Shown: in pieces, positions 5,028 to 62,114 of the stretch | Layout of the letters: every line of letters starts with the position of its first letter | Numbering within the stretch: the first letter of the stretch is position 1 | NCBI RefSeq assembly: GCF_036373705.1 | Contig: NC_089851.1 | Location: 2,505,001 to 2,569,000 of the forward strand | DNA from: Amia ocellicauda | Lineage: Eukaryota; Chordata; Actinopteri; Amiiformes; Amiidae | DNA: 64,000 bases | Direction: 5' to 3' | Program-made: the position numbers and the translations under genes | The notes under the pieces: generated by a model | Told to the model about the DNA's origin: nothing | The model's input: only the letters and a program-made list of their open reading frames with translations | The model's database searches: none

Positions 5028-8000
5028 GCCCAGCGATGGCCTGGCGTCCTGTCCTGGGTGTATTCCTGCCTTGCGCCCTATGCCTGCAGGGGTCAACTCC
5101 GGCTTCCCCGCGACCCTCAGCAGGACAAGCGGTTTCGAAAATGGATGGATGGATAAAGTTCAGATTCCTCTTTGTTGTTTAATAGAAACTACATTAGAAA
5201 ATTATTCACAGAGATGGGGGGCCACTGAGGCGGGTTGGATTTTGATCTTTAATCTCAGATCTCTTTATGCATGCCAGAGGCTAAACTGACACTGTTTGTA
5301 TACTGTATCTCTGATCAACCTCTTACATGGAAATCCCACTGCAGTTATTCCCCGACTTTATTTTGCCAAAATTGGAGAAAACAAAGCTGTACAGATTCAT
5401 ATACTTGTACATCTGCTTCACCCCCGATCCCCTCCCCTCTCTCTCTGACTGGACTTTGTAAACCAAACTGTTTTCTTTTCTTTCTTTTTAACCTCTGCAT
5501 TGTCTGAAATGAATAGTTTGAAACTGTATCTCTCTTTTTCCTTTGCAGAGTGACAACAGTTTTGTTGATTTCAACTTTTATATGAAAGTAACGCACTGCT
5601 CTAAGACCAATAGACACGAACACCGTGGGGACTGCAAGTTCAATGACAAAAGAGTGAGTGTCACGCTGGGCTGGAGAGAGCAGGGAGTGTAACAGTACAC
5701 AGAGACAGACAGTGAGACAAAGACAAATAGTGAGACAGAGACAATGAGTGAGACAGAGACAGTGAGAGTGACAGACAGTGAGTGTGACAGACAGTGAGTG
5801 AGACAGAGACAATGAGCGAGACAGACACAGGGAGTGAGATAGAGACAATGAGCGAAACAGACACAGGGAGTGAGACAGAGACAATGAGTGAGACAGACAC
5901 AGGGAGTGAGACAGAGACAATGAGCGAGACAGACACAGTGAGTGAAACAGATACAGGGAGTGAGATAGAGACAATGAGTGAGACAGACACAGTGAGTGAG
6001 ACAGAGACAATGAGCGAGACAGACGCAGTGAGTGAGACAGATACAGTGAGTGAGACAGAGACAATGAGTGAGACAGATAGTGAGTGTGACAGACAGTGAG
6101 TGAGACAGAGACAATGAGTGAGACAGATAGTGAGTGTGACAGATACAGTGAGTGAGACAGAGACAGGGAGTGGGACAGCGATGAGAAGAACAGTGGTGCA
6201 GGCTTCTGAGCTTCAGTATTGAAATAAACACAGAGAGGACTATCTACAGGTCAGAACACCCTGGTGTGTCTCTGCAGACACTGTTCACCCGCAGTGCAGT
6301 CATATCCCTACCTCACCTTGTCTCTCCCCGTCTCTTCCCCACAGCCATTGCTAGACTGTGTGGTATGCGGCAGAAGACACGGGAACAGCATTGAATCGCC
6401 CTACATCCACTGTGTTCCAAAAAAACACCTGGTAAAAAAGGTATTTCAACCAAATGGTTTCCATCAAGAAATGAAAAACTTCAGTACTATATTTTATACA
6501 TGCATATACACTCACCTAAAGGATTATTAGGAACACCTGTTCAATTTCTCATTAATGCAATTATCTAATCAACCAATCACATGGCAGTTGCTTCAATGCA
6601 TTTAGGGGTGTGGTCCTGGTCAAGACAATCTCCTGAACTCCAAACTGAATGTCTGAATGGGAAAGAAAGGTGATTTAAGCAATTTTGAGCGTGGCATGGT
6701 TGTTGGTGCCAGACGGGCCGGTCTGAGTATTTCACAATCTGCTCAGTTACTGGGATTTTCACGCACAACCATTTCTAGGGTTTACAAAGAATGGTGTGAA
6801 AAGGGAAAAACATCCAGTATGCGGCAGTCCTGTGGGCGAAAATGCCTTGTTGATGCCAGAGGTCAGAGGAGAATGGGCCAACTGATTCAAGCTGATAGAA
6901 GAGCAACTTTGACTGAAATAACCACTCGTTACAACCGAGGTATGCAGCAAAGCATTTGTGAAGCCACAACACGTACAACCTTGAGGCGGATGGGCTACAA
7001 CAGCAGAAGACCCCACCGGGTACCACTCATCTCCACTACAAATAGGAAAAAGAGGCTACAATTTGCACAAGCTCACCAAAATTGGACAGTTGAAGACTGG
7101 AAAAATGTTGCCTGGTCTGATGAGTCTCGATTTCTGTTGAGACATTCAGACATTCAGTCAGAATTTGGTGTAAACAGAATGAGAACTTGCCTTGTTACCA
7201 CTGTGCAGGCTGGTGGTGGTGGTGTAATGGTGTGGGGGATGTTTTCTTGGCACACTTTAGGCCCCTTAGTGCCAATTGGGCATCGTTTAAATGCCACGGC
7301 CTACCTGAGCATTGTTTCTGACCATGTCCATCCCTTTATGACCACCATGTACCCATCCTCTGATGGCTACTTCCAGCAGGATAATGCACCATGTCACAAA
7401 GGTCCAATCATTTCAAATTGGTATCTTGAACATGACAATGAGTTCACTGTACTAAACTGGCCCCCACAGTCACCAGATCTCAACCCAATAGAGCATCTTT
7501 GGGATGTGGTGGAACGGGAGCTTCGTGCCCTGGATGTGCATCCCACAAATCTCCATCAACTGCAAGATGCTGTCCTATCAATATGGGCCAACATTTCTAA
7601 AGAATGCTTTCAGCACCTTGTTGAATCAATGCCACGTAGAATTAAGGCAGTTCTGAAGGCGAAAGGGGGTCAAACACAGTATTAGTATGGTGTTCCTAAT
7701 AATCCTTTAGGTGAGTGTATATATTGTGACTCACTGTGGGGTGTAGTACAGAATGGACACAGCCTGTGGAAGAAACATCTCCGTCTTGTCCCTTTCTCTG
7801 GTCATACCAATATTGACACACCAATCACCTGTCAGCCACCATATATACACAGAACAAACAAGGCAACCGATTGCACTGCACCGAGACAGGGTGAGGGAGC
7901 AGACCGGAGACAGAGGGAGAAGGAGACGATATAAGGACCCTGTTTGATTGAGAACCTGGCTTGTTTACATACATATACACATGCACACATAGGTGTACTT

Positions 8001-25881: not shown

Positions 25882-28800
25882 CTAGTCCGAGTCCGAGTCG
25901 CTGGTCTCTTCTGTGGATGAGCTGCTGCTGCCCTCTGATTGGTCCTCGTCATCTTCGCCCTCCTCGTCTTCCTCGTCCTCCTCATCGTCGTTCTGCGGGA
26001 AGGAGGTGAAGGAGTGAGCCGGGGCAGGGACACACACCAGGAGATGCCCCCACATTCAGTCTCGCACGGAGACAGGTGGCCATTTTCACGCTGGATACAA
26101 ACTGAAACCGACAACGCCACAAACACAGTGCCTGTACCCACCTCCTCCTCGTCCTCGCTGTCCGAGCTGCCTGAGGACTCTTCCTCATCCTCCTCTTCCT
26201 CTGAGTCTGAGGAGTCTGTCTTCTCCTCCTCCTCCTCCTCAGAGTCCGAGGTGTCCTGGGGCGCAGGGGGCACAGTCAGCTTCCCTTTTCCCTCCAATTA
26301 TTTCACAGCCGCCCATACACACACACTAACATTCGAGCGCATCGTTCTCACCGGCTGGCCCTAGAAATCGCACGCACGCACGCACGCACGCACACACCCC
26401 CCTCTCCCGGGAAGGCAAATACCTGTGCCCTGTACGCCATCGCTTCTTGCCCCCCCCCGGCCCCCAGTCCTCCGGCAGTCGCACCTACCGCCTTCCCCTT
26501 TCCCGTCACTTGCACCTTTGCCCCGGGGCCACCCGCCTTCACCGAGCTGCGTCGCTTCTGGAGAGAGAGAGACACGAAGAGAGGAGAGAATCGGAGTAAA
26601 ACAAAGACTGACACACACGCTCAAAAACACGCAGCAGACCGAGACAAACTCCCACAGTTTAAACGCCTCACTCACCACAGTGGAGAACTCTTTGTAGACG
26701 GCGCGCTCCTGAGGAGACAGGGACTGGAAGACAACAGAGAGGGAGAATCAGAGAGTGACAGAGTGAGGGTGAGTTACAGTGTCCCAGCTGTCCAGGAAAT
26801 AAATCCAATCACTCAATCAATCAGGGCCCTGAAGAGCAGCAGCGTACCTTCACCCAGGCCTCCAGCTCGGCCTTGTACTCGATCTGATGCTCCTCCACCA
26901 GCTTCTTGTACTTGTCCTTCTGGCCCTGGCTCAGCTTGTGCCACCGCTTGCCAATCTCCACCATGCGCTCCTTCAGGCTGAAGTGGTTGAGCTCACCATT
27001 GGTCAGCAGCTCCTGGGAGAACATCTGGTAGCCGCTCCTGAGGGGGCAGGAGGAGATGCCGATTACAAATACTGCTCTCTCTTCATTGCTCAGTGGCTGG
27101 TTTGGAGTCGTGTCAGTTTAACAGTTTATGGTTGTGTGCGTGTTTGTGCTGCTCACTTACACGGGGGGTTTCTTGGGTTCCCCATCAAACTTGGGCTTCC
27201 TCTGGGCCTGGGCAGACGGTGGGGTCCTCATCTCCACCAGCTCCCTCTGCAGGGAGGGACAGCACCGTCAGACTGACACACATATACACTCCAAATCCCA
27301 GTGAGACATCCTCACCCTGACCCCTCCATCCCAACCTTGCCCCACACCCTCACCTCATATCTCTTCTGGTCCTCTGCAGCCTTCTTAATCCAGGGGATCT
27401 TCTCCTTCTTCTCCATGGCCCTCCAGGTGGACTCCATGGCATTCTGCGCCTTCTTCCGGTCGTTCTGCAGAGAGGAACCAAACACCATCAATCCCACTGT
27501 CACGCACGGTCCTGAGATCTCCTGCTGCCAAGTGAAGCCTCCTGCCGTCATTCCTCCACCAATCAGTCCAGATCTCTGCTTATTAACATTCTGACCCACA
27601 AATACATACACACCTACATCCCCCTGCCCTCACCCTGTACTTGGTCAGGTAGTCCCCGATCACACTCTGCTGCCACATCTCCTCGGCGGTCTTGGGCGTC
27701 TCTGGCAGCCGCGTCTTCCTCTTGCTGTCGCGCTTCTCCTTGGGCGGGGTGTGCAGCCGCTGGTCAAGCGGGCGGTCGGCCTCCCGCAATCTCTCCTGGC
27801 ACACGGGGTGGCAGGGTCAGCAACACAGTCTCTTTCCATCTCAATCTTTGCGTTTCATGCTCTCCCTCCCTCTCTCTCTCCCTCCACTTCACTTTGCTTG
27901 ATGCCTATATTTTCACACCCTAAAAGCTACCACAATACAAGTGCACATTCAAAGCCCTCGCCCGAGAGGGTCCAACAAGGCACCTCACCTTGGCTGAGGG
28001 GGACTTGGCCCTGAGGGGGCTGCCCGTGGCGCCCATGCCCAGTCGAGAGCCCCCCAGCTTCTCCTCCGTCAGCACGCGGTCGCGCTCCTCCTCCGGCAGG
28101 CTCTGCAGAAACAAACACAGCACATGGTCAGCTGGAGGCAGCACACACACAACAGTACACACACACTCTGGTTACACTTTATACATCTGTGTGTGTATGC
28201 ATGTGCGTTTAAACCCTATATACACTGTTCACAGACTCGTACACACACACACATGGAATACTATATTTTGAGTGCTGGGATCCAACATATGGGACAAACA
28301 CACACACACACCTCCAGGAACCTCTGCAGATCCATCTCATACTGCTTCTTTTTCTGCAAGAGAAGAACAGATCACAGATGTTAGTATGTGTGGCACTTGG
28401 TTACTCCTAAATGTGCTCTATAAAATAAGGGGGATTATTATTTTTTACCATCTATACACACACCAATCAGCCATAACATTATGAGCACTGACAGGTGAAG
28501 TGAATAACACTGATAATCTCACTATCATGGCACCTGTCAGTGGGTGGGATATATTAGGCAGCAAGTGAACATTTTGTCCTCAGAGTTGATGTGTTAGAAG
28601 CAGGAAAAATGGGATCTGAGCGACTTTGACAAGGGCCAAATTGTGATGGTAGACGACTGGGTCAGAGCATCTCCAAAACTGCAGCTCTTGTCGGGTGTTC
28701 CTGGTCTGCAGTGGTCAGTACCTATCAAAAGTGGTCCAAGGAAGGAAAAGCGGTGAACCGGCGACAGGGTCATGGGCGGCCAAGGCTCACTGATGCACGA

Positions 28801-31800
28801 GGGGAGCGAAGGCTGGCCCGTGTGGTCCGATCCAACAGACGAGCTACTGTAGCTCAAATTGCTGAAAAAGTGAATGCTGGTTCTGATAGAAAGGTGTCAG
28901 AACACACAGTGCATCGCAGTTTGTTGCGTATGGGGCTGCGTAGCCGCAGACCAGTCAGGGTGCCCATGCTGACCCCTGTCCACTGCCGAAAGCGCCTACA
29001 ATGGGCACGTGAGCATCAGAACTGGACCACGGAGCAATGGAAGAAGGTGGCCTGGTCTGATGAATCACGAGTTCAAGGTGTTGACTTGGCCTCCAAATTC
29101 CCCAGATCTCAATCCAATCGAGCATCTGTGGGATGTGCTGGCCAAACAAGTCCGATCCATGGAGGCCCCACCTCGCAACTTACAGGACTTAAGACTAACG
29201 TCTTGGTGCCAGATACCACAGCACACCTTCAGAGGTCTAGTGGAGTCCATGCCTCAACGGGTCAGGGCTGTTTTGACGGCGAAAGTGGGACCTACACAAT
29301 ATTAGGCAGGTGGTCATAATGTTATGGCTGATCAGTGTATTCAATAACCACTTCAATTAGTACAGGGTTGTGGTGCCTACATTGATTATTACTATTAATC
29401 ATATCAAAGTGCTGCAGTCCTGTGAACGTAGGTTATTCTCAAACACAAGTAAAAATACAGAACAAGAACCCAGCATTAAGACAGTCCCCTAGCCCAACCC
29501 CGCGGTGACCCCTGACCTGCTCGCAGCGCTTCTGGAACATGTCCTTCTCCTTCTGGGTCATCATCTTCCACTGCTTGCTGCACAGCACCATGCGCTCAGT
29601 GCTCGGCACGTCCTTCATGTTGACCATCAGCTCGGCGCAGTACAGGGAGTAGCCATTCCTGCAGGGCAGTGGGGGGGGGAGGGCAATTAGACACGGCACT
29701 GAGTCAGAATGTTGCCCGGCACAGCACAGCAGGGCGGAACGGCACAGCATGGACGTGGACCTACGGAGGGGGTTTGGTTGGCCGTCCGTCGAACTTGTCT
29801 TTGAGTTGGCGCTCTGCCTTGGTCAGGACGGACTTCGTGTGCTCGTCTGGGTTGGCGTCGGGGTGCGTCTCGTGGTACACTCTCATAGTGCCCTGCAAGA
29901 CACACACACACACACACACACACACAGTCAGCGAGCGGCACAGACACCAGGCCTGGTCTGGGACAGGCAGTGAAAGTGGCACTGTAAGTGGAGTTGGCAT
30001 TATAAATGGTAGGGTGATGGTAGGGGAGAGATCAAGAATGAGAGAGAAAAAAAAATAGATCATATACGTAAATATTAACACGTGAAATTTGAGAACCTTC
30101 ATATTTTTCTCCATTTTGCAAGAAGTGTTCTCATGTGGAGCACAGGATGAGAGACGCTCAGCGCCTCATTCCACGCTGGCTCACCCTGATGATTGAATTT
30201 TCATGGCAATTAGCACCTGCGTATACGGTACATAGAAGCTGAACCAGTTCCAGAGAGGAAAAACTGCCCATGTGTGACATTAGTTTTATACAAAGGTACA
30301 AATGTATAAGAACATAAGTGTCCAATCAAGAGGAGGCCGTTCGCCCCATCATGCTCGTTTGGTGTCCATTAATAACCAAGTGATCAAGGATCCTATCCAG
30401 TCTGTTTTTTAATGTTCCCAAATTGTCTCTTCAGCCACATCACTGGGGAGTTTGTTCAGATTGTGATGCCTCTCTGTGTGAAGAAGTGTCTCCTGTTTTC
30501 CGTCTTGAATGCCTTGGAGCCCAATTTCCATTTGTGTCCCCGGGTGCGTGTGTCCCTGCTGATCTGGAAAAGCTCCTCTGGTTTGATGTGGTCGATGCCC
30601 TTCATGATTTTGAAGACTTGGATCAAGTCCCCACGTAGTCTCCTCTGTTCCAGGGTGAAAAGGTTCAGGTCCTCAGTCTCTCAGTAGGACATTCCCTTCA
30701 GACCTGGAATAAGTCTGGTTGCTCTCCTCTGAACTGCCTCTAGAGCAGCGATATCTTTCTTGGAAGTGTGGAGCCCAGAACTGTCCACAGTATCCAGATG
30801 AGCTCTAACTAGTGCATTGTACAGTCTGAACATCACTGCCCTTGTGCTCAATTCTACACTTTTGACAATATACCCTAGCATTGTGTTTGCCTTTTTTATT
30901 GCTTCTCCACATTGTTAGGATGGAGAAAGTGAGGAGTCCACATAGACTCCTAGATCTTTCTCATGCGTTACTTCATCTAGTTCTGTTCCTCCCATAGTGT
31001 AATTATAGTGGACATTTATTACTACTAATATTGTTTATAATAATAATTATAGTAAAATAAATTAATCTTGTGTATTGCAAGCCAAACTGACCCCTGACCT
31101 TGAAAATCCCATTGACCCCTGAGAAGCCTGCCCCATTGACCCTTTCTCCTAGTACATCACAAACCGACCCAAACCCCAAACCCTTGACCCCCTCTGACCT
31201 CGTAGTCCTTCTGCAGCTCCAGCGCCTTACTGATCCACTTGAGGCGCTTCTTGTCGGAGAGCTGAGACCACTGTCGGCGCAGGGCCTCCTTCAGCTCCTT
31301 CTGGCTGACCTGGGAGAGCAGGACACACAGTCAGAGCGCTGCTCTGGAGATGACTGAGCCGGGCTGCTCAGGAGGCTGGGGGTCCTCGTGATTGGATACA
31401 TTTTTCCTAATCATTTCTCATGTGCATTTCTCCATATAAACTGGCTGCTGGCAGCATTGCTGATATAAAACCAAAACCATTTCTAAACAAACTGGGAACT
31501 GAAGCTTTGAGTGGACTCTCTAACACACATGAATCTTATAAAACAGTTTGTGTCTCAAACTGCTGTATGATGGGTGTCTCGTCTCCACGCCAGTCACCCG
31601 TCCCATCCCATCCTCCAGCGCTCACCCTGCCCTCGTCCCCCCTGTCCCACCCCGCCCTGTACCCAATCCTAACACACTAGAGGAGACGGATGGTGTTACT
31701 GGCAGATTTCTACACTTCTGTTGTGGATGGTTTAGCCGTTACAGAAGAGCCACCAGCCCTGCACATGTCCCAGATCGCTCCCCGCCCCGCCCTGTCCCAC

Positions 31801-47000: not shown

Positions 47001-49380
47001 GGCGCACGAACGCCATGGTGGGCTGCTCCAGGAAGTCCACGCTGCCTGCGGGGAGAGGAGGGCGGGGGCCGGCTCAGTCAGGGCGGCAGGGCGGCTCTGG
47101 GAGAGTCTGGCGTCTGTGTCTGGTTCTCTCCCTGTGTGTCCATGTGCCTGGGTCTGAGCTTGTGTGTGTTGGTGTGTCACTGCGGCCCGGTGTCGGTATG
47201 GGGTCTGAGACGACTCACCCACGAGCACCACGGTGGCCTCTGCGTTCTCTGGGATTTTCTCCAGCAGCTTCAGCTCGTGTTTGGACTTGGAGCGATGCAT
47301 GCCCAGGGTCGGGGTGGCCTCCTTCTGCACAGAGAGAGGGAGAGGGAGACTGTCAACAACTGCCGTCCTTTTCCTCTCCCTCCCTCAATTCCTCCCTCCT
47401 GCTCCACCCTACCTCTCCTTCTCCCTCTCCTCCCATCACCCCTCCCTCCCTCCCTCCCACTCCCAGCCTCTCCCCTCCCTCTCCGACTGACCTCCAACTT
47501 CTCGATGTCGACCCAGGTGTCGGGGTCCGAGTGCCGGGGCCCACCGCCCATGAGTGGCTCTGTGACAGAGGGCTCGGGGGCCCCAGCTCGGCTGGCGGGG
47601 GGTGGGACAGCTGTGTGGTTGCCGCTGTGATGGTGGACCAGCAGGGAGCCCAGGCTGGCGGCAGAGATGTTCCGGGGGAAGATGGGCTCCTTCTCATCGC
47701 TCGGGTGACTGAGAGCCGGGGGGGAGAGAGGAGGGAAGGAGGAAGACAGTAGAAGGCGAGACAAAATGGTCAAGTCCAGACACCTTCACACCCCATGCTC
47801 AGAGCTGGAACCAAGGGCCCTGCTATCAGTTAGATAATGACACCCTGTCCTGAGTCGGGGTTGGGGGTGCTGTGCACGGGTGTGTCGCCCCCCCCTCACC
47901 TGTGTTTGAGTAGCAGGGCCCGGAGCACGTTGGCGCGGTCAGCCGCCTTGATCTGGTCCGAGATGATCATCTGCTCGACCACCTGGTGGGCGATACCTGG
48001 CAGGGTCTTCTGGTCCAGGTCCAGCAGCACGGCGCCTACAGGACACAGCACAGACACCGGGCCTGGGTCAGGAGCAGGACACGGCACAGACCCACACCAC
48101 CTCTTCCGCCTCCTCTCCCTCCCCGTCTCTCCCTCTCCACTCCCTCACCCTGTGCGATGGTCTTGCGCAGCTCCAGGAGGCTGCGGAAGCTGAGCGAAGC
48201 CACGTGCGGTTTGCCCCAGCGCTCCGTCTCCTCCTCCACATCCTCCTCGAACTTGATCCAGCGGGCCGTCTCCTTCCACTGCATCTCCTGGTTCTTGTCC
48301 ATGATCAGCTCGTTGAGCTCCACAAACACCTGCCCGAGCGCCCGGACACACACGGAGACATGGAGAGGGACATAGAGACACACGGAGAGACAGAGACACA
48401 AAGCCATCTCAGTGCATATTTAACCCATCGTAATTGATCACTGACAGACTTCTACACCTCCTTCAGCCTTGAACACTCATCTTGAGAAACAAACTCTCAG
48501 TCCCTTGATTAGAACTGAAGACACACAGACACGGAGACAGAGACAGACAGAGACACAGTTACAGTCACACATGCAGACACATACACAGACTGAGATGGTC
48601 ACAGAGACGCACACACACACAGTCACACACAAAGAAAACAACAGCAGCCACAACAAAAACAAACAACTCAATTTTCTTTCTGAAACTCATCCCCGTTTGA
48701 GCATCTGAATTATTAATCCTGCAAAAGCCCCAGAGCAACAGACAGAGTAAAGCACAGCCAGCCAGCGCTTAACCAACAAATCACACAATCTAGCCGGCGC
48801 AGTCGGGCAGCCCTGCCCTCACAGGAGACTCTCGCATCGCGGGGACACCTGTGGCTGCGATGCATTGCCTCCTGCGATCCTCAGACCGACATATAGACTG
48901 GGGCCACACTGACAGGCCTGGGCCCCACAGATCAGGAAGCTAGAGACCGAGACCCGACCAGAATAAAAACCCCTTCTCACCTTCTGCGGTCTGGCGACGT
49001 GCCCGGTGATGTCCAGCAGAACCATGGTGGACAGACAGACGGGACGCAAAGATGGATGGATGTGCAGGCGGACGGACCGAGGGGACCAGAGAGAGAGGGA
49101 GGCGTGGGGTCGGCCGGAGTGGAGCTGAACTGAGCTCAGAGAGGAGCTCCCAAGATACCCCCGGGCTCTCAGGAGCAGAGGCGGGCCCCTCTTGTCCCTG
49201 CTTGTGTCGGGCTCGGTGCAATATTAATAAATCATCCTGCCCACCCCTTGCCCTGCCTCCGATGGAGACGAATTCTGCAGGCTGGGTGTCTCGTTACTCG
49301 TCTTTATATATTCTGTCTTTTTTCTTTCTTCCCCTCGTGAAAGGAAAGAAGTTGGTCATTCATTTTTAATTGCCCTCGTG

Positions 49381-49411
<31 letters not shown>

Positions 49412-49791
49412 ACAGAACAAGGGCACACAGCGGGCTGCCAACAGAGGGCGAGGACAACACCTGTGTTATTTATCCATCCGTTAGTCTATCCATCCATCTG
49501 TGCATCCATCCATCTCAGTATTCACCCACCTTATCCAGCTCTGTGTCAATCCATTAAATTTGATCACTTAAGGCTGAAGCTTTACAGTGTGAAAGTCACT
49601 GCAAACTTATTTTTTAAATCTTGATATATAGCAAAAATGTATTTTTGGGGGAAATAACCATCATACAGCCAAACAATTCCAACAGGAAATCGAATCAAAT
49701 TAAAAAAAAAGTCCCACAATGCAACATGACTACTGTGGTTTATAGGGACTAGAATATGGCTTCTGGTAATAAATGAAACCATGATGAATAC

Positions 49792-49844
<53 letters not shown>

Positions 49845-52800
49845 TATTATTATTATTATTATTATTAATAGTATGTAGGGGCTGTGCTCTGGTGACCTTT
49901 GCCTCCTGACCTCTAATGTGCCCTCTCACCTCATGGGGGGTGCGGTCCAGTTTGCGGATGCGGGTGCTGGGCTCCTTGTGGTCCTTGCTGATGTGGACCA
50001 CCTGTCCCTTGGCGCTCTTCCTGACCAGGTGTCTGCGCACGCCGGGGACATCCTCGAACCTGTGGCCTGAGCAAGAGCGAGATGGAGGAGGACACACTTT
50101 AAAAATGTCTTATTGTCAATTTATTTTTATACAAATAAACACAAGATACGCAAACTCATTGTGAGACAGAACCGCGACCAAATCACAGCTTTCCCACTAA
50201 AACTGAAATAAATGAAATCGTCCGAGGATGAAAGCCGCCCAGTGTGGGTTTGCCTCTCCTCTGTGGCACTGTTATGTGCAGCCTGGCACAGCACAGCGGC
50301 GCTAGGGGTCCCGCGGTCAGGGATACAGCTAGTGTCACCTCTTCTGGCGTGTGAAGACGCCTGAGAGAGAGAGAGAGAGAACAAGGTGGGCACTGTGAGG
50401 GGGCAGAGTCTGTGGCAGCGAGGTAAGACGACTCCCGCAGGCGGGTGATGGCAGATGAGCTGCTTTTCTCACACAGTCTCAGTCCCCCACCCCACACACT
50501 TGTAGGCACTCATGCACGCTCTCTCTCTCTCGATCTCTCTCACACACACACAATTAGACAGAGAGAGTGGGTGAGATAGGGAAATAGGAAGATGGGTAAA
50601 TAGGAAGAAAAATAATTTCCAGCGAATTTCTAAGAATTTCTAAGTTAGAAACACAAACTGTGGATTTAGGGGGAGGGGTCTTACGAGCACAGCCTAAGAG
50701 AGGGGCGGGAAAGAGGAAGGCAGAGGAGGGGGATTGGGGAGACACTGGCACTGTCGGCTACAGACCCTGCCAACCCACCCCACCCCCTTCAACAGAGCAC
50801 GGTAAAGAGTGACGCAGCTCAAAATGTAACTAAATGAAGTCGGAGGCGGGACACTGCCCGACACTGACAACAACAAACACCGCCAATACAACCAAAAACC
50901 ACAACCAACCTCCCCACGCCATGGTGTCTCCGCTGGATCGCCACAGCCGGATCACTACAGCCGCTCGTTCTCGGGGTCGAGACGTGGAGCACAGCGCCCA
51001 CGTCACCTGGGCATGCAGCGACCCTCCGCCCGTCTCTCTCCCTCGCACTCCCCGTTCCCTACCTCCCTCAGGGGGTCTGCAGCACTCCTCTGTGTCAGTG
51101 CGGGGCCCCCCCTCCCCGTTTGTGTCCGTACCCGTCTGTCTGTGACTCAGCAGGGGTGCTTGGACCAGAACCCAGTTGAGAACATGGAGCTGGATCGGGG
51201 GGGGGGGTTTACAGCACTACAAAGCTTCCCAGGCATCTACCCCCCCCAGAACACAAACACGGCCCAGAGCAAGGAAGAAAATAAAAAAGGAAAACCTGGC
51301 AGGATCCTGCCTTGCACTCCAATTGTGCCGAGCGTCGGCCATGTTCCAGACCGAGCCCAGGTCCGCACGGCTTCCCGACGCCTCACTGAACTCCGGCTCG
51401 CATCAGAGATGAACTCCAAGGGGAAGAGAGACTCCTTCCTCCTCCAACCAGCGTCCACCAGTGTGTCCCACTCCCAGCTCTTCCCCTGCAGCACCCTTCC
51501 AGGGTATCGTGATTGGGGTGAGGTGCACCGGGTCCAAGGCAGAAGCAAGTGAATCGGGTCCAGGAGTCTCTGTCCCCTCTGGGCAGTTCCACAGGGCTGG
51601 GATGCACAGAGCCGAGTGCTCGGGCGCTGGGATGTGCCGGTGCCTGGCGGGGGAGGCGGGGGAGGTGGAGGGGACAGTGATGTGATAATTCCCCTTGTTG
51701 AGCGGCCGCCAGCTCCTTGCCGACTTTCCCAGGCCGATCTCCTCTCGCTGCGCAAATTGATCAGGACCGAGGGAAGGATCATGAACAACCCTCCCTGACC
51801 CCAAACTGCAGCCCAGTGCTGGCGAGGTGGGGTGAGGGTGGGAAGGTGGGCAGGGAAAACTAAGCAAGAAGGATCACTTCCACAGTGTGCAAAAAAATAT
51901 TTTACGAAAAGGACTGCTCTTTCACGCTGAGGTTACAACACCAAGCACAAACCGGAGCAGACTCAAACACCTGTAGATCCAGTTTGCAGAACCCTGCACA
52001 GATGACCACACAGAACTCTGACAATTCTGACACCCAGGTGCAAGAGAGAGTGGGGTAAAAACTAAATAAAGCTAAAACAATATGCATTTTGTCTCCTTTT
52101 GTCCATAGTGCTCATTTTAATCTGGCAGAGTTCTGTTATGGTTTTGCTTGGAGGGGCTGTATTTCTATGAACCTAACAGAGTGAAAGTACAGAGATGCCT
52201 CATACAACCTGGGCTTCATTGAGAGAGGGAGACTGTGGGGAGTACAGGGCAAGACAGAGAGAGATGGAAAGATCGAGAGAGAGACTGAGTGATAGGGAGG
52301 CACAGAAATACGTTTCCCTGGGTAAGCGACATCTGCTAGGAAATAAATAACAATAAAAAATTAAATTAAATGTAAAAAGGTGAAGATTGGAAACCCGGAG
52401 AGTGCAGCTCTCTTTGTGCGTCCAGTTCAGTCTTTCCTTTACCAGCCCTGTCCCTGCAGGTTATGGCACTCTTGTGGGCACAGGCATCGACTGATGTATT
52501 TGCCGTTTAAACATGCCAAACCAAACAAACACCATTCCAGCAGACTCTCCGTACAGCTGGCGACCATGATAAACGTTTCAAACCGTGCCCTAGAACCGTA
52601 ATGGTGAACGTAAATAAAACAAACAACTTCTCTCCCCCTTTTCATCCATCCCTTCTCCTTCCCTTTCCCTGGCTCCTCTTCCTTCTCCCCATCCCCTCTT
52701 CCCTGGTACCTTTCTCCCTGACCCCTCTGTCCTCTCCCTCCAACCCCCTTCCCTCTCCCCTCTTTCTCCCCCACATCTTTTTCTTCTCCCCTCCCCCCTC

Positions 52801-61800: not shown

Positions 61801-62114
61801 AAGAGTAAAAGCCACTCAGACACTGCCCTCCGACACCCCCTACCTCTCAACCACTTCCCATCTCTGTCCCCCACCTCCTCGCCGCTCCCACTGCTGCGGG
61901 GAGGTGAGCCGGCCCCCCTAGTCTGATTACCCCCCACCCCCATTACAAGAGAATGAGAAAAAGAGAGGGATAGAGAGAATGCAGAGCTGTAACATGCTGC
62001 AGTGCACTGTGGGATAGCGTACCGGGGTGGCGTGGGTCTTTCCTGCACAGCGGCCATGGTCTCGCCCCCCATGAGCCTCTCGACACTCACCTGAAAGTTG
62101 AACAGGAAGTCCAT
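42699..62114 (-). CDS. slc4a2: Anion exchanger 2 (Cl-/HCO3- exchanger), long isoform from a b-type first exon
   Basis: Coding exons in transcript order: 62114-62091, 56884-56719, 56447-56173, 56010-55865, 53108-52822, 50066-49930, 48329-48149, 48035-47900, 47708-47492, 47324-47219, 47045-46861, 46417-46201, 46000-45794, 45667-45519, 45392-45198, 45083-44847, 44750-44661, 44562-44396, 43933-43680, 43565-43396, 43154-42981 and 42779-42699 (1266 aa; human AE2 1241). All junctions are GT-AG and phases match. The first exon encodes only MDFLFNFQ, like the mammalian AE2b2 start. The N-terminal cytoplasmic domain has the His-rich [14 protein letters not shown] block, an acidic run and the pH-sensing [12 protein letters not shown] block. 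The membrane domain (about 700-1230) keeps IFMETQITT (transport Glu about 1036), SKLVK and three N-glycosylation sites (N890, N895, N909). The tail [12 protein letters not shown] ... NEMPMPV is AE2-specific. The long N-terminus excludes AE1; the NEMPMPV end favours AE2 over AE3. Confidence 0.96.
43989..44335 (+). repeat. (GA)n tract and three degenerate AATAAAGC repeat ends
   Basis: A (GA)n run at about 43993-44052 is followed by three degenerate segments with the pattern CTTTGGCA ... AATAAAGC ... TTGAATTTGAA, at about 44058-44110, 44190-44255 and 44290-44335. They fill most of the slc4a2 intron 43934-44395. Another related end lies at about 63520-63585. They look like remnants of one retroposon family's 3' end. 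Confidence 0.55.
48981..49025 (-). CDS. slc4a2: Alternative internal first coding exon of slc4a2
   Basis: Fifteen codons ([15 protein letters not shown]) start at an ATG in a near-ideal CCACCATGG context. They end in a canonical CAGAAG|GTGAGAAG donor in phase 0, exactly the phase of the next acceptor (48330, CAG|GTGTTTGTGG, VFVEL). The resulting short isoform would be 936 aa, replacing the first 345 residues. It drops the His-rich and acidic N-terminal segments but keeps the [12 protein letters not shown] block and the membrane domain. The position, directly before the VFVELNEL exon, parallels the cardiac AE3 start. Mammalian AE2c starts come from a nearby intron, but I know of no match for this peptide. 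A TATA box lies 277 bases upstream. Inferred from sequence, without transcript evidence. Confidence 0.7.
49302..49310 (-). promoter_or_regulatory. TATA box of internal slc4a2 promoter
   Basis: On the minus strand this reads TATATAAAG, a good TATA consensus. It lies 277 bases upstream of the alternative ATG at 49025, predicting a start near 49275 and a leader of about 250 bases. A second AT-rich block (TTTATTAATATTG, about 49218-49230) lies further downstream. Confidence 0.5.
49795..49866. repeat. (AAT)n joined to (ATT)n, self-complementary
   Basis: About 50 bases of AAT repeats run straight into about 22 bases of ATT repeats, so the tract can fold into an all-A/T hairpin. It is intronic in slc4a2, just downstream of exon 49930-50066. 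Confidence 0.9.
50067..52821 (-). other. slc4a2 intron between exons 52822-53108 and 49930-50066
   Basis: 2.75 kb with scattered CT/GA-rich tracts and a GC-richer part at about 50.9-51.8 kb. Several open frames up to about 180 codons occur there, but none resembles a known protein or has splice support. Confidence 0.45.
53109..54946 (-). other. slc4a2 intron between exons 55865-56010 and 52822-53108 (proximal part)
   Basis: Contains (CA)n at about 54429-54450, GT runs near 53927 and 54530, and a (GA)n tract at about 54897-54930 directly before LINE copy D. No gene is seen. Confidence 0.45.
54947..55789 (+). mobile_element. LINE reverse-transcriptase 3' fragment, copy D
   Basis: The best-preserved long copy. 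Frame 55019-55360 reads through the RT thumb-like region ([18 protein letters not shown] ... [15 protein letters not shown]), and 55474-55668 carries a downstream block ([14 protein letters not shown]). It begins at the same internal point as copy A at 2279. It is antisense to slc4a2, 75 bases from exon 55865-56010. It is non-functional because of stops and missing 5' domains. Confidence 0.85.
56885..62090 (-). other. slc4a2: slc4a2 first intron
   Basis: 5.2 kb between the MDFLFNFQ exon and the exon beginning PEGDPL. Probably regulatory in part, but I recognise no gene. It includes CT-rich tracts (59.05-59.10, 60.33-60.38 kb) and a partial inverted relative of the 4.9-kb repeat at about 60526-60600. 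No alternative first exon with a phase-0 donor was recognised with confidence. Confidence 0.45.
60526..60600 (-). repeat. Partial copy of the 4.9-kb dispersed repeat
   Basis: The stretch GGGTTACACCCTGGACGAGG ... CCAGTCCATCCCAGGGCA is the complement of the block near 5030-5075 in the plus-strand copy. Only a fragment remains, followed by a short CACA run. Confidence 0.55.

Follow-up and report, generated by a model that had tools for sequence, protein, structure and literature searches.

Does intron 7 of slc4a2, in the 64,000-nt window of Amia ocellicauda DNA analysed here, hold an alternative coding first exon for a shortened AE2, or a chance resemblance to one? A preliminary description of this DNA had proposed the former: a start codon opening 15 codons that end at a phase-0 consensus donor, a TATA box 277 bases upstream, and a 936-residue product lacking 345 N-terminal residues. 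The start, the 15 codons and the donor are all found as described, on the minus strand. The ATG of CCACCATGG occupies 49025-49023 and opens 15 codons running through 48981; the donor that follows, AAG/gtgaga, agrees with the consensus at 8 of 9 positions and is in phase 0. The exon encoding VFVELNEL begins at 48329, also in phase 0, behind the acceptor ...gggcag/GTGTTTGTG, and its phase fits the candidate donor. The candidate TATA box is present as well (TATATAAAG, beginning at 49310), at a distance that depends on the convention: 277 bases approximates the gap after the 9-mer (276 as counted here), and the two elements are 285 bases apart from start to start. The predicted leader contains one short upstream ORF (ATG 49235, MIY, stop; 3 codons), which counts against the proposed start, and CATC-type repeats occur directly upstream of the candidate ATG and elsewhere in intron 7. 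An origin of the exon from a repeat was considered and rejected: the candidate stretch gave one match only in the genome (988 Mb, 385 contigs) and is thus single copy, in a search that leaves out simple repeats and words of very high frequency.

The gene itself, on the minus strand, was rebuilt exon by exon. The resulting model gives 1266 residues for the long form and 936 for the short one, with exactly 345 before VFVELNEL and 921 after it, in agreement with the lengths first proposed. Within the limits searched, a single exon path fits frame and splice sites for the 921 residues from VFVELNEL to the stop codon, and the gene is intact. It is closest to AE2: a 115-residue piece compared with solved structures matched human AE2 with E 9.5e-51 and AE3 with E 9.4e-45. 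A separate AE3 gene (HRFEDNPG...) is found on contig C22, and AE1, AE2 and AE3 have one motif match each in the genome (8 of 13 candidates matched); the other 5 of the 13 candidate matches look like Na-coupled SLC4 members. The Pfam domain Band_3_cyto begins at residue 344 in the long form and 15 in the short one, so that the folded domain has the junction at its edge and would be retained whole in the short form. Exon 8 includes what we take to be the AE2 pH-regulation block. At the other end of the gene, the first residues of the long form, MDFLFNFQ, are of the AE2b2 type (MDFLLRPQ in human). Mammalian AE2b2 likewise has 8 unique residues (PMC4664831, PMC4464172), which suggests that the AE2b2 start is ancient.

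Positions of the slc4a2 features discussed in the text (window coordinates)
Feature	Position	Strand	Basis or remark
AE2b2-type first coding exon (MDFLFNFQ) of the long form	62091..62114	-	8 unique residues
HRFED exon (exon 7), skipped in the predicted short form	49930..50066	-	slc4a3 counterpart receives the cardiac-type first exon
slc4a2 intron 7 (AE3-type numbering), holding the candidate	48330..49929	-	sequence and exon model
Candidate TATA box TATATAAAG	49302..49310	-	sequence; predicted transcription start ~49280
Predicted 5' untranslated part of the candidate exon	49026..49280	-	pyrimidine-rich; transcription start predicted from TATA distance
Candidate alternative first coding exon	48981..49025	-	ATG, AAG/gtgaga donor, phase 0
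VFVELNEL exon (exon 8), acceptor side of the proposed splice	48149..48329	-	sequence, exon model
Exon-8 Met codon, possible fallback start	48300..48302	-	ATCATGG context; aligned with human AE1 residue 66

Beside slc4a2, the window encodes between 16700 and 30000 what are presumably a FAST-kinase-like gene (plus strand) and a UBTF-like HMG-box gene (minus strand). In human, FASTK lies near SLC4A2 and UBTF near SLC4A1; the gene order here may preserve the neighbourhood as it was before duplication. Two open frames, 6657-7685 and 28630-29319 (both plus strand), are presumably Tc1/mariner-type transposase-like, one long and one partial.

The strongest alternative to a real exon is chance: a patch of intron rich in GC and pyrimidines, with CATC/CTGT simple repeats, in which an ATG, a frame and a donor are mimicked without any transcription. 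How often such a combination turns up was estimated from a scan of 528 strand-kb, comprising the window and a further 20 stretches, each of 10 kb, of the contig on which it lies. A strict pattern (ACCATGG, an open frame of 5-70 codons and a donor of at least 8/9) occurs three times, the count being the same for phase 0 as for any phase; apart from the candidate, the matches are a genuine coding exon of AE2 (at 47016) and a single site in the background. This corresponds to 0.009 per 1.6-kb intron for all three, or about 0.003 for the background site alone, low rates which argue against chance and which overstate the case, since the patterns were written after the candidate had been seen. A loose version of the pattern, beginning with RNNATGG, has 14 matches, and TATAWAAR precedes the start by 30-400 bases in two of these. 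The window accounts for six: besides the candidate, these are the start of AE2b2, three coding exons of AE2 and a frame at 28036, presumably UBTF-like, for which a Pfam search gave no match. The eight background matches include a cullin exon (Pfam E 3.4e-15) and a probable exon of Bax1-I, whose E of 0.026 falls short of the curated cut-off; for the remaining six, Pfam gave no convincing family. Up to 6 of the 14 loose matches are therefore at places without a convincing protein family, so that the tens of kb of introns in a window can yield one by chance. Dinucleotide shuffles of the intron (n = 3000) contained the strict pattern in 0.17% and the loose one in 3% of cases, and either start pattern combined with TATAWAAR in none. 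A reader scanning dozens of introns would meet a chance feature of this kind fairly often, at an estimated 0.1-0.3 per window.

Codon usage gives a separate view of the same site. Codon frequencies trained on the remaining AE2 coding sequence were set against the trinucleotides of the same gene's 5' introns; the test is independent, because the site had been picked by its start, frame and donor without regard to codon usage. Over the 14 codons after the ATG the score is +5.15 bits in the predicted frame, as against -3.8 and -9.5 in the other two, a 15-codon exon offering little to measure. None of 92 ATG-started open 14-codon stretches in the slc4a2 introns reaches this value, nor does any of the 23 with matched GC; it is reached by 1.1% of 8829 open stretches and, among 1239 coding stretches, by 85%. 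Against a local background the score is +3.44 bits, and the corresponding figures are 1 of 92 and 2.1%. The signal stops at both edges. The 66 codons before the ATG, in the same open frame, total -19.5 bits; the 10-codon block across the donor, starting from the last codon of the exon, scores -13.4 bits, and the four full 10-codon blocks after the donor +0.2, -6.2, -5.1 and -3.4 bits. Codon usage of the slc4a2 type is thus present in the predicted frame only, and only between the ATG and the donor.

Eight other matches to the loose pattern also score positive on codon usage. Four of these belong to the training set (the AE2b2 start and the three AE2 coding exons); the others are the presumed UBTF-like frame, the cullin exon, the probable Bax1-I exon and one background site, L015. 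Among the six background matches without a family, L015 is the exception (+4.5 bits over 25 codons), and the other five are negative, a result that goes against chance as an account of the candidate. The codon model is not portable between genes: a cardiac-type exon of slc4a3 (discussed below) scores -32 bits, which we think is owed to the different base composition of that gene.

Signals of promoter type add less. TATAWAAR occurs about once per 5.3 strand-kb in the scanned sequence, and among 31 ACCATGG sites preceded by 400 bases of sequence, 7 have one 30-400 bases upstream, the candidate being among these 7. Boxes being this common near ACCATGG, the one at 49310 is of little evidential value and was rejected as evidence for a promoter; the same count agrees with a chance origin. 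The CpG observed/expected ratio at the candidate (0.63) is reached by 13.5% of 650 background windows and by 60 of 213 in the gene-rich window, and that ratio together with GC content by 1.1% of the former and 13 of 213 of the latter, a modest signal.

Taken together, chance has in its favour the family-less loose matches, the commonness of upstream TATA boxes, the CATC-type repeats close to the ATG and at other places in the intron, and the lack of a counterpart in slc4a3 (below); the rarity of the strict pattern and a codon signal confined to the interval from ATG to donor, matched by at most 1 of 92 comparable stretches, tell against it. Chance seems to us a serious contender, somewhat short of an even probability. 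The reading that we tentatively put first, and which approaches an even probability, is that slc4a2 intron 7 holds a real, minor and perhaps tissue-specific coding first exon for a short AE2, as the sequence features suggest.

If so, a TATA-type promoter at 49310 would give transcripts from ~49280, with a first exon of ~300 bases that would extend to 48981 and be spliced to exon 8 (VFVELNEL) at 48329. With the ATG at 49025 as start codon, the product would be a 936-residue AE2 in which a 15-residue tail is joined to complete Band 3 cytoplasmic and membrane domains, without the 345-residue AE2 extension. The product would presumably be a Cl-/HCO3- exchanger that keeps the pH block of the cytoplasmic domain and loses the modulation by the N-terminal, Glu-rich part. 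In mouse, AE2c1, which lacks 198 residues, is described as needing a more alkaline pH, an effect mapped to the Glu-rich stretch 120-150 (PMC4664831), and I347, K348 and F349 of human AE2 are described as cytoplasmic-domain residues contacting the membrane domain (PMC10810954). Since the short form would be without the Glu-rich stretch and would retain the membrane-contacting residues, it is predicted to be an active exchanger with a shifted pH response.

Alternative promoters for N-terminal variants are reported to be common in SLC4 genes (PMC4664831, PMC4464172). The mammalian AE2 variants named in these reviews are a, b1, b2, c1 and c2, none of which starts at intron 7, and no AE2 start in intron 7 is described in the titles and abstract openings of the literature searched, mostly outside subscription journals. 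A query with AE2 exon 8 found 11 pattern stretches in viral contigs and 97 in genome contigs, sets with no fish DNA among them, and 0 were confirmed.

A further possibility is that the promoter and first exon are real and that translation begins instead at the exon-8 Met (48302). Transcripts from about 49280 would be spliced to exon 8, the 15-codon frame being unused or minor, and the product would be a 912-residue form resembling kidney AE1 (kAE1). This Met has a strong context (ATCATGG) and by alignment arithmetic (query 53 = AE1 66) corresponds to residue 66 of human AE1, the kAE1 start; human AE2 has Leu at this place. kAE1 is described as lacking 65 residues of AE1 (PMC11271275, PMC4464172). 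Against this, the ATG at 49025 comes first, has the better context and is the one favoured by the codon signal. We regard initiation at the exon-8 Met as the main route as improbable; under the preferred reading, with translation from 49025, it could serve as a start where the upstream ATG is bypassed.

The origin of such an exon was approached through the paralogues. The preliminary description had placed the cardiac start of AE3 just before the equivalent exon, and had from this suggested an ancient internal promoter common to SLC4A1, SLC4A2 and SLC4A3. In its cardiac form, AE3 is reported to share the last 957 of 1227 residues and to have the first 270 replaced (PMC1950688); PMC11271275 gives the missing part of cAE3 as residues 1-296. 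The former is preferred here because the sequence fits 270, and neither figure puts the boundary at VFVELNEL (321). By alignment, VFVELNEL starts at residue 321 of human AE3, and residue 271 should open the HRFED exon, a boundary taken from the fish gene. The fish slc4a3 has in its intron 6 (L009 5767-5572, minus strand; G000:C22) an exon of 65 whole codons plus one base, reading MMVITEEREALVGG...ESIRAHMGCAGLTS, with a 7/9 donor, that joins the HRFED exon in phase 1. We take this convincingly C1-like exon as the likely counterpart of cardiac C1, which suggests that the cardiac start of AE3 predates the split between fish and mammals. The placement of that start was therefore one exon out: C1 splices to the HRFED exon (human AE3 271 versus 321), and the slc4a2 candidate, in the next intron and in phase 0 instead of 1, is not in a C1-homologous place.

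Intron 7 of slc4a3 (503 bp), the counterpart of the candidate's intron, has besides its own donor none of at least 7/9 and no ATG-to-donor frame. A tblastn search of the window with the 66-residue peptide of the slc4a3 C1-type exon gave, among the best 40 matches, nothing better than E 0.13 and none at the candidate, and the AE2 intron compared with 9.9-kb slc4a3 and slc4a1 stretches gave only 16-17-base matches with E 0.12 or worse. A C1-like exon was also sought in slc4a2 intron 6, which is homologous in position to the intron of AE3 C1, and rejected, there being no donor of at least 8/9 and no homologue among the matches listed. This intron does have an ACCATGG (ATG 50922; 50830-50922, minus strand), a second good start context in the slc4a2 introns, opening a 30-codon hydrophobic frame that stops without a donor of at least 8/9. 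In the 9 kb upstream of slc4a1, one ATG-to-donor frame was found (L010 1473, MGHNWSCPDRLRQLGLQTASLPTEWVIPQ), of looser context, unrelated and likely due to chance.

A promoter inherited by all three genes is thus very improbable: mammalian SLC4A1, SLC4A2 and SLC4A3 are all reported to have internal promoters in their 5' halves (PMC4664831, PMC1950688, PMC5073285), but that of AE3 is one intron upstream and in another phase in this genome, that of AE1 is placed in intron 3, exon 4 serving as the leader (PMC5073285), AE2c1 is described as losing only 198 residues (PMC4664831), and the slc4a3 exon and the candidate have, among the matches listed, no similarity at the protein level. Of the earlier interpretation, the alternative first exon agrees with everything that could be tested and gains from codon usage, and the argument from a shared promoter falls. 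As the AE3 start is one intron upstream and the AE1 start also lies upstream as far as it could be matched, the candidate, if real, probably arose separately. That it represents a lineage-specific internal promoter, a fourth AE2 promoter class independent of the internal promoters of AE1 and AE3, is possible, though we hold it as rather doubtful; a real exon would add to the SLC4 family one more N-terminal variant, of a known kind and probably young.

Should the exon be used, AE2 would gain a promoter class, and there would be a natural test of the role of the long N-terminal extension in pH control, the folded domain being intact and the extension alone lost. If it also arose independently, AE1, AE2 and AE3 would be a case of convergence, each shedding part of its N-terminus by way of an internal start, and repeated independent origin of such starts would suggest that tissues can turn the extension off as a module. 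An unused exon would still illustrate well how readily a first exon can be imitated by intron sequence.

Among known systems, AE2b2 is like the candidate in being an alternative first exon of AE2 (here at 62114), and differs in that it swaps only the first residues and keeps the rest of the extension. The stomach variants AE2c1 and AE2c2 are, like the predicted product, N-terminally shortened forms of AE2 made from an internal promoter of the same gene; mouse AE2c1 starts further upstream and is reported to lose 198 residues (PMC4664831), compared with 345 for the candidate. Cardiac AE3 shares the general layout: a paralogue with an internal promoter in one of its 5' introns, and a short unique N-terminus that replaces the extension and leaves the cytoplasmic and membrane domains in place. 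It differs in lying one intron upstream, in joining the HRFED exon in phase 1 in this genome, in having no sequence similarity to the candidate, and in the number of unique residues: 73 in mammals as reported in PMC1950688, about 66 in slc4a3 here, and 15 in the candidate. Human kidney AE1 is described as having, like the candidate, an internal TATA promoter (PMC5073285), and its product begins in the exon equivalent to exon 8; the promoter lies in intron 3. Provided that human AE1 shares the intron found in fish AE1 directly before the exon-8 equivalent, this is at least one intron further upstream. Unlike the candidate, kidney AE1 has exon 4 as an untranslated leader (its 5'UTR) and starts at residue 66, with no new residues, whereas the slc4a2 exon would supply 15 of its own.
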